This document shows positions 30,953-31,683 of a DNA stretch of 64,000 nucleotides, piece by piece. A program made the translations under genes and the position numbers. This stretch comes from Bugula neritina. Lineage: Eukaryota > Bryozoa > Gymnolaemata > Cheilostomatida > Bugulidae. Within the stretch, counting starts at the first letter, position 1; each line of letters starts with the position of its first letter. The stretch is taken from positions 2,707,751-2,771,750 of the forward strand of contig OZ037773.1 in NCBI GenBank assembly GCA_964035545.1, in the 5' to 3' direction. A model generated the notes under the pieces. The model saw nothing but the letters and a program-made list of their open reading frames with translations, searched no databases and was not told where the DNA came from.

Positions 30953-30958
30953 TCTCAA

Positions 30959-31005
30959 TCTGTGGACAGCAGCTGTTTCGGGATTTGTCCCCTCATCAGC
31001 ACAGA
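30959..31005 (-). ncRNA. Type I hammerhead ribozyme, array unit 1
   Basis: Core and stems identical to the solo copy at 7761-7807. Predicted cleavage between 30965 and 30964. Confidence 0.85.
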
Positions 31006-31228
31006 AAGAGTACCATGGCCCACACCTTCGCAATAGTAAAACTTATAGTTTTACTAAAGCATATTTAAAAGGTGTGTAAACTCAAGCCAGAGTGCTCAAG
31101 TGACTCTAGGGGTCACCTAGGAGTCACGAGCATTGCAAAATGCTAGCAGCTTGAGTTTGTGACCATGGTGAGAGTGCTCAATCATTTAATGTCATTGCTG
31201 AGCAATAAATGAGAGCGTAATATCTCAA

Positions 31229-31275
31229 TCTGTGGACAGCAGCTGTTTCGGGATTTGTCCCCTCATCAGCACAGA
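31229..31275 (-). ncRNA. Type I hammerhead ribozyme, array unit 2
   Basis: Identical motif exactly 270 bases after unit 1. Confidence 0.85.
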
Positions 31276-31498
31276 AAGAGTACCATGGCCCACACCTTCG
31301 CAATAGTAAAACTTATAGTTTTACTAAAGCATATTTAAAAGGTGTGTAAACTCAAGCCAGAGTGCTCAAGTGACTCTAGGGGTCACCTAGGAGTCACGAG
31401 CATTGCAAAATGCTAGCAGCTTGAGTTTGTGACCATGGTGAGAGTGCTCAATCATTTAATGTCATTGCTGAGCAATAAATGAGAGCGTAATATCTCAA

Positions 31499-31545
31499 TC
31501 TGTGGACAGCAGCTGTTTCGGGATTTGTCCCCTCATCAGCACAGA
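31499..31545 (-). ncRNA. Type I hammerhead ribozyme, array unit 3
   Basis: Identical motif. The flank reads CAGAACAGAG as in the solo copy, while units 1 and 2 read CAGAAAGAG. Confidence 0.85.
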
Positions 31546-31683
31546 ACAGAGTACCATGGCCCACACCTTCGCAATAGTAAAACTTATAGTTTTACTAAAG
31601 CATATTTAAAAGGTGTGTAAACTCAAGCCAGAGTGCTCAAGTGACTCTAGGGGTCACCTAGGAGTCACGAGCATTGCAAAATG

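Follow-up and report, generated by a model that had tools for sequence, protein, structure and literature searches.

The window, i.e., the whole 64,000-nucleotide stretch of Bugula neritina DNA that was analysed, carries a tandem array at positions 30950–31686, on the minus strand, for which TRF reports a period of 270, 2.7 copies and a 99% match. Phases are counted from the base after the predicted hammerhead cut (phase 1). Along the ribozyme strand, the array consists of a 5′-truncated unit of 182 bp spanning phases 90–270 (31505–31686), two identical 270-bp units (31235–31504 and 30965–31234; 100% identity to the query unit), each corresponding to a predicted self-cut monomer of 270 nt, and a 15-nt 3′ overhang (phases 1–15). 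(TA)n arrays abut the 5′ end (31685–31798) and the 3′ end (30829–30953) of the element.

A sequence-only reading of the locus had described three units without an ORF, spaced exactly 270 bases apart. The direct repeat is real and slightly larger than described; the third copy, however, is partial, and is spaced 271 bases from its neighbour because a 1-nt deletion common to both full units is absent from it. The absence of an ORF was borne out, as the longest ATG ORF in the circularised unit encodes 22 aa. With a length of 270–271 nt and a GC content of 43%, the unit fits the short non-coding tandem units (approximately 150–450 bp, GC below 50%) of known metazoan retrozymes.

Five additional copies are found in the window. 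A second full-length monomer (7752–8034, minus strand; 98.2% identity) has an intact hammerhead and is located between TA arrays. The others, on the plus strand, belong to a subfamily called B. The copy at 30551–30831 is approximately 91% identical, also lies between TA arrays and has a broken hammerhead, in which G12 is changed to A and stem III lacks 2 nt. Two copies (27963–28243 and 25379–25659) reside within 2.58-kb tandem units, and one (22787–23066) follows an inverted unit of the Penelope-like element (PLE) described below. A hairpin (alignment A1, columns 179–202) distinguishes subfamily A from subfamily B by a G in one arm and a C in the other; L049, L062 and L065 look intermediate, their left arm being of the A type and their right arm carrying the B-type C. 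At 4847–4917 (plus strand), the window also features a weak Rfam tRNA match (29.7 bits, cut-off 29), at which ARAGORN gives no tRNA.

Hammerhead ribozyme of the repeat

The motif UCUGUG-CUGAUGA-GGGG(ACAAA)UCCC-GAA-ACAG(CUG)CUGU-C-CACAGA occurs three times in the minus strand of the array. Stem I consists of 6 bp followed by a short internal loop and by CUC/GAG, and stems II (with one G-U pair) and III of 4 bp each. Cuts are predicted at 31505/31504, 31235/31234 and 30965/30964; the intact type I hammerhead at 31229–31275 (minus strand), for instance, is predicted to cut between 31235 and 31234. The retrozyme thus features a type I hammerhead with a conserved core and three stems.

Motifs were sought with a descriptor written for this question (CUGANGA, stem II, GAA, stem III with the pair A15.1-U16.1, H17 and a stem I of at least 4 bp), a type of tool also used to detect retrozyme hammerheads in PMC7229834, where RNAmotif descriptors are reported. 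In 320,368 bases, comprising the window and the fetched loci, 91 motifs were found, 83 of the retrozyme type, a number that does not measure genome density since the loci were fetched because they contain the retrozyme, and 8 of a PLE type located in terminal repeats. No motif was found in 20 Markov sequences of the same size. All three hammerheads of the array pass the descriptor, in agreement with the sequence-only claim of a complete minus-strand ribozyme in each unit.

The check by the Rfam type I covariance model that the same reading had proposed gave no match at the curated cut-off. No hammerhead was called in the full window at gathering cut-offs, and none was listed up to E=10 in 1.5 kb. 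Of 15,744 genome candidates for RF00163, 73 were scored, and the single sub-threshold place is a PLE-type hammerhead, not the retrozyme. A search of 81 bases against Rfam gave RAGATH-1-hammerhead as the best match, in the correct register (15.2 bits, cut-off 56.3, E=1.3). A covariance model built solely from the 13 PLE-type hammerheads, as an independent test, placed the retrozyme motif in register with a non-significant E=0.17 in 1.5 kb; in the full window, the motif was absent from its matches at E≤10. Because Rfam fails to call the retrozyme hammerhead, the identity of the ribozyme rests on the descriptor scan.

Folding of the minus strand with ViennaRNA revealed that stems I and II are paired and that part of the core is closed otherwise, with a z score of only −1.4. 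The predicted circle of one unit folds at −98.2 kcal/mol (z −9.1), and the opposite strand has a z score of −6.3. Covariation in the unit is weak, as only 2 of 92 predicted pairs are double-changed in 19 copies, and the covariation term is unfavourable (+1.08).

Penelope-like elements in the window and in the genome

Three head-to-tail 2.58-kb units of a candidate PLE, called PLE1, occupy window positions 20349–30501 at spacings of 2586 and 2580, and are preceded by an inverted unit. After every 2.58-kb unit, TA arrays enclose a subfamily-B retrozyme; this nested insertion has therefore seemingly been amplified together with the PLE. The unit at 28305–30501 (plus strand) has inverted terminal repeats, a 3′ tail running into (TA)n, and a reverse transcriptase (RT)-like frame (28660–29493) and a GIY-YIG-like frame (29468–30079) that differ in reading frame. 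The frames of the units at 20–30 kb carry, by eye, what we take to be YRDDG and GIY-YIG-like motifs. Searches of the frames of PLE1, L016 and L069 against Pfam and NCBIfam gave no family above cut-off and no RT or GIY-YIG match, and the L016 frame has no PDB relative. A structure model of the RT piece was too poor to be used (pLDDT 36) and was discarded. The PLE label is thus a putative one, given on motifs and architecture. PLE1 features both tandem and inverted terminal repeats, and paired and inverted RT copies are found genome-wide; the 147 RT matches scored there include some whose open frames measure at least 700 aa.

A different GIY-YIG frame, at 19167–19736 (minus strand), is recognised by Pfam (PF01541, E=7e-5), has a close relative at L043:4057–4542 (minus strand) and perhaps represents a further PLE family. 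A hammerhead-like motif, CTGAAGA...GAAATATC, was noticed at 20291–20322 (plus strand).

The terminal repeats carry PLE-type hammerheads. In the unit at 28305–30501, the 5′ inverted repeat holds a hammerhead with an intact core (28359–28413, minus strand; 60.8 bits with the PLE model), and the 3′ hammerhead (30316–30370, plus strand; 55.1 bits) has a broken 15.1–16.1 pair. Two PLE-type hammerheads, one of them a related PLE1 copy at 22425–22473, reach 26.3 (the PLE1 copy) and 25.4 bits with RF00163 (cut-off 34). Hammerheads of this type have a 3-bp stem III and form four sequence families, distributed among the window and L009, L013, L016, L017, L020, L032, L033, L039, L043, L049 and L069; three families are found beside an RT-like frame (window, L016 and L069), and the fourth in L013 and L017. 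Covariation is strong in stems I and II. In the alignment of the four families, 10 of 17 pairs are changed on both sides; double-changed cells number 37, compared with 12.9 in shuffles, and none of 500 shuffles was as high. These hammerheads are more complete than the minimal PLE ribozymes presented in PMC7229834. A further match to the PLE model (53180–53231, plus strand; 18.8 bits, E=0.015) is embedded within CTA/TAG simple repeats and is probably due to chance.

There are 94 PLE1 tails, and 90 of these continue into TATATATA. For a second element, PLE3, TA follows the tail in L069, L043 and L049 and a tail fragment in L021; in L032 the tail is followed by GT repeats instead, and the match in L033 ends early. 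Among the matches listed, 8 of 163 distinct retrozyme loci lie within 3 kb of a PLE RT copy, compared with 0.65 when loci were placed randomly per contig (maximum 5 in 1000 trials), a closeness that may stem from shared TA-rich ground. On the minus strand of L069 (approximately 1701–2126), a single TA tract hosts three nested inserts in the same orientation, namely, a PLE3 3′ end, a 40-nt PLE1 tail and a 5′-truncated retrozyme.

Copies, ends and flanks of the inserts

Pattern counts on the 215.8-Mb assembly, allowing up to 3 mismatches and with all reversed controls at 0, identified 491 copies of the hammerhead tail without TA, so that the copy number check suggested by the sequence-only reading revealed a dispersed, multicopy element. 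The pattern from the hammerhead to the 3′ ATAT occurs 443 times, the tail followed by (AT)n 374 times and the array-internal junction 97 times; the last two sum to 471, near 491, with pattern sets that are not strictly nested. Counts along the unit (215, 276, 167 and 443 for phases 31–80, 101–150, 166–215 and 236–15) form no clean gradient, the four patterns detecting 34, 36, 31 and 34 of 40 fetched one-unit inserts, respectively. Such a gradient was rejected as a test of 5′ truncation, being confounded by subfamily differences at 166–215. With exact patterns on C1–C6, 32 of 92 3′ patterns were accompanied by an exact 5′ pattern and 32 of 68 5′ patterns by an exact 3′ pattern; the excess of 3′-only over 5′-only copies (60 vs 36) has the expected direction, with mutation mixed in. 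The median difference between units from separate loci is 4 of 269 aligned columns, and the sampled copies, which are the best matches, look young.

Insert ends were placed by BLAST in 74 inserts from 60 fetched loci (L010–L069) and the window. L010–L049 comprise 39 loci from one genome search and one from the RF00163 search, and L050–L069 are the first 20 new places in the list for the pattern from the hammerhead to the 3′ ATAT. Two of the fetched loci contain EGF_CA and CBM_14 domains, in keeping with an animal host. The four subfamily-B rows of the window are tandem duplicates, L045 and L046 have common flanks and the 5′ flank is the same in two L021 rows, so that the 74 inserts represent approximately 69 events.

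The 3′ end falls at phase 15 in 70 of the 74 inserts and within phases 10–16 in 71; the other four ends are at phases 7, 13, 145 (L021:94–365) and 191 (L059). In contrast, 5′ ends take 37 values. The most frequent, phase 12, is found in 23 inserts, nearly all of which measure approximately 275 nt or whole multiples. Eighteen inserts are shorter than 255 nt, 40 range from 255 to 300 nt and 16 exceed 300 nt, reaching up to four units. Since the 23 rows of L050–L069 were chosen by a pattern that contains the 3′ end, the 51 remaining rows, obtained by a search that favoured full-length copies, were considered separately, and the 3′ end is at phase 15 in 48 of these. Arrays longer than 300 nt, in which either end is free to be partial, provide a fair test of polarity. 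In the 13 such arrays among the 51 rows, 12 of the 3′ ends but only 4 of the 5′ ends fall within phases 10–16 (Fisher P = 0.004).

No insert begins or ends at the cut, as none of the 74 has a 3′ end at phase 270 or a 5′ end at phase 1. The template RNA would consequently be continuous across the hammerhead cut, either as a circle or as an uncut multimer, which may have been linear with an (AU)n tail, and the same two null counts rule out cut linear monomers as the template. In five loci (L029–L033), the 3′ junction occurs 2 nt earlier (TTGA|TATA), and two of these (L029 and L031) keep GAGATAT in the 5′ copy of those phases. No other variant is common to all five. These junctions suit a setting anew at insertion, and descent from one source with that tail also fits. 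Other 3′ junctions able to pair with TA are GAT|ATAT in L038 and CTATA|TATA in L059.

A TA run of at least 12 nt is present in the adjoining 20 nt of 66 of 74 3′ flanks and 48 of 74 5′ flanks, compared with a background of 233 of 29,987 20-mers (0.8%). The presence of TA on both sides indicates that the array most likely predates the insert. In the predicted circle, phases 12–18 (AUAUUAC) have an unpaired probability of 0.24 at phase 12 and of 0.94–0.99 at phases 13–18 (UAUUAC). The unit contains three ATAT/TATA tetramers, all of which are largely unpaired, and only one insert ends at 188–191. Plain TA pairing as the sole determinant of the 3′ end was rejected, as the two other open tetramers are hardly used; a protein placing the start near the hammerhead would be the simplest addition to TA pairing. 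At truncated 5′ ends, microhomology is modestly raised (mean 1.26 vs 0.74 simulated, P=0.007, n=23) in a set that drops rows with a flank lacking a TA run of 8 or not ending in A or T.

Units of the same array are often alike. Within arrays, 7 of 18 unit pairs are identical, with a median difference of 1, compared with 1.2% of 2193 between-locus pairs and a median of 4. Private variants are common to all full units in L024 (3 units), L043 (2) and the window (2). Other arrays are heterogeneous, with units differing at up to 9 (L038), 8 (L068) and 4 (L017) positions. These differences, and the partial window unit without the deletion of the full units, are not expected from one circle copied without later change. 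Homogeneity supports rolling copying without proving it, as local DNA duplication would also yield homogeneous arrays.

Insertion of the retrozyme and related systems

Judged by its sequence, the element is best filed as a metazoan non-LTR retrozyme, which adds one more animal host. The sequence-only identification as a likely metazoan retrozyme is supported, as size, GC content, lack of an ORF, tandem layout, type I hammerhead, dispersed multicopy distribution, self-paired predicted circle and hammerhead-bearing PLEs all match the description in PMC7229834. That reading mentioned neither the TA flanks, the five further copies in the window and the neighbouring PLE array, nor the polarity of the junctions, which bears on the mode of insertion. 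The elements reported in Acropora, Mytilus, Ambystoma and Nematostella (PMC7229834, PMC4918200) similarly feature type I hammerheads in low-GC, non-coding tandem units of 150–450 bp, self-paired predicted circles and co-resident PLEs, a likeness of architecture. Unlike retrozymes as described in these sources, the element inserts in (TA)n with a near-fixed start, 5′ truncation and arrays of at most four units (74 inserts). Nematostella retrozymes also differ in being described with 15-bp target duplications (PMC4918200); here, any target duplication would be masked by the flanking TA repeats. The mode of insertion is the new part, the kind of element being already known. No paper linking an animal retrozyme to TA microsatellites was found in the searched literature, the scope of which excluded preprints and most subscription papers.

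Plant LTR retrozymes (PMC4918200) are also non-autonomous, hammerhead-processed retroelements with a proposed circular RNA stage, but have a type III ribozyme, LTRs, PBS/PPT, 4-bp target duplications and lengths of 600–800 nt. A precedent for the landing site is CarSV, a retroviroid-like circular RNA of carnation, multimeric DNA copies of which occur in microsatellite-like genome sequences in some cultivars (PMC9695139). CarSV differs in being a plant agent tied to a pararetrovirus, and neither a repeat sequence nor a start point nor a connection with PLEs is given in the passage describing it.

Hammerhead-bearing PLEs (Penelope/Poseidon; PMC11167929, PMC3846280) share with the system described here a 3′ tail past the hammerhead cut, an AT-rich target, an internal start of reverse transcription and tandem and inverted terminal repeats. 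For instance, an internal start downstream of the hammerhead cut and AT-rich cleavage are reported for an Anolis PLE (PMC11167929), and inverted pLTRs, tails and AT-rich targets for PLEs in PMC3846280. The retrozyme differs from PLEs in having no ORF and a 3′ end only approximately 7–15 nt past the cut, compared with approximately 138 nt in PLE1 and 47 nt in PLE3 (hand count) and 85–92 nt in the Anolis PLE (computed from the numbers in PMC11167929).

For the route by which animal retrozyme circles return to DNA, and for the enzyme involved, PMC7229834 offers a hypothesis, namely, that a LINE or PLE copies the circle with the target or an RNA as primer, in a text without junction data; PMC11722881 repeats the proposal. 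The copy ends analysed here suggest that the element returns to DNA from a circular RNA, at TATATA runs. Near-fixed 3′ ends, variable 5′ ends, TA flanks and the private variants shared by units of several arrays point to reverse transcription that is primed by the target and rolls along a circular (or uncut multimeric) RNA. The explanation that we regard as probable is that of a recently mobile metazoan non-LTR retrozyme, the circle of which is copied at (TA)n by an endonuclease-bearing RT, most likely that of a PLE. It builds on the observed structure and copy number of the element, on 3′ ends that are near-fixed and 5′ ends that vary, on flanking TA, many homogeneous arrays and a target shared with PLE1; cleavage, circularity and the identity of the RT are our inference.

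According to this explanation, transcripts of the arrays would be cut by the type I hammerhead into RNAs of 270–271 nt, which a host RNA ligase would close into circles, as in the published pathway. An endonuclease-bearing RT, most likely supplied by the resident hammerhead-carrying PLEs, would nick a (TA)n microsatellite, and the nicked DNA end would pair with the circle at its AUAU, immediately 3′ of the hammerhead. Reverse transcription would then round the circle for part of a turn, approximately one turn or several, with completion favoured where the cDNA can pair with TA again. The most specific form of the proposal, in which a PLE-type enzyme nicks TA and copies a closed circle from a near-fixed site by the ribozyme, making anything from a fraction of one turn up to four, and in which the tandem arrays thus result from the topology of the circle itself, is put forward tentatively, as somewhat short of an even prospect.

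If this form is true, the genome constitutes a record of the integration step of a retrozyme. One assembled genome brings together hundreds of similar copies that share a sharp start point and a defined target, and PLEs with hammerheads that use this target too. The integration evidence is unusually clean and candidate PLE proteins, some with open frames of at least 700 aa, are at hand, which makes an open mechanistic question testable.

PLEs are the likely machinery because they carry covarying hammerheads and because PLE1 tails enter TA in 90 of 94 cases. Mobilisation of the same circles by another RT, such as that of a LINE, appears rather unlikely. The enzyme cannot be identified by TA preference alone, the PLE label is itself based on motifs and architecture, and the 15-bp duplications of Nematostella retrozymes (PMC4918200) are LINE-like. 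However, PLE1 3′ ends enter similar TA arrays, the PLE-type terminal repeats carry hammerheads and in the Anolis PLE reverse transcription begins at an internal site of the RNA, past the hammerhead cut, at AT-rich targets (PMC11167929).

It is unlikely that the retrozyme spreads as a SINE would, through linear read-through transcripts whose flanking (AU)n tail primes on TA, the hammerhead trimming only upstream RNA and no circles being formed. Such transcripts would account for 3′ ends that nearly always run on into (AT)n, for the many full-length 5′ ends at phases 2–12, just inside the 5′ end made by the hammerhead, for multimeric arrays and for the early 3′ junction of L029–L033, as expected of an inherited tail. 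Yet a full unit with its tail can arise only if the last hammerhead, which lies 15 nt from the tail, remains uncut, and none of the 74 5′ ends is at phase 1. The different TA-pairing junctions of L038 and L059, and the private variants common to units of several arrays, also argue against this route.

A third possibility, that the AUAU end seeds slippage after insertion and that the element makes its own (AT)n without any target preference, is very improbable; ATAT is indeed found at the 3′ end of the element, and the last 20 nt of 26 of the 74 5′ flanks contain no TA run of 12 nt, but those of the other 48 do, against the 0.8% background, and a 3′ ATAT cannot seed a 5′ flank. Least probable is spread at the DNA level, through extrachromosomal circular DNA or unequal crossing-over between TA arrays with the hammerhead as a passenger, as the many homogeneous arrays, the TA found often on both sides and the clear tandem duplication of the 2.58-kb PLE units are outweighed by polar ends (near-fixed 3′, variable 5′), copies truncated at the 5′ end to less than one unit, the dispersal of hundreds of copies, and 83 ribozymes that satisfy the descriptor, compared with 93 aligned hammerhead regions.
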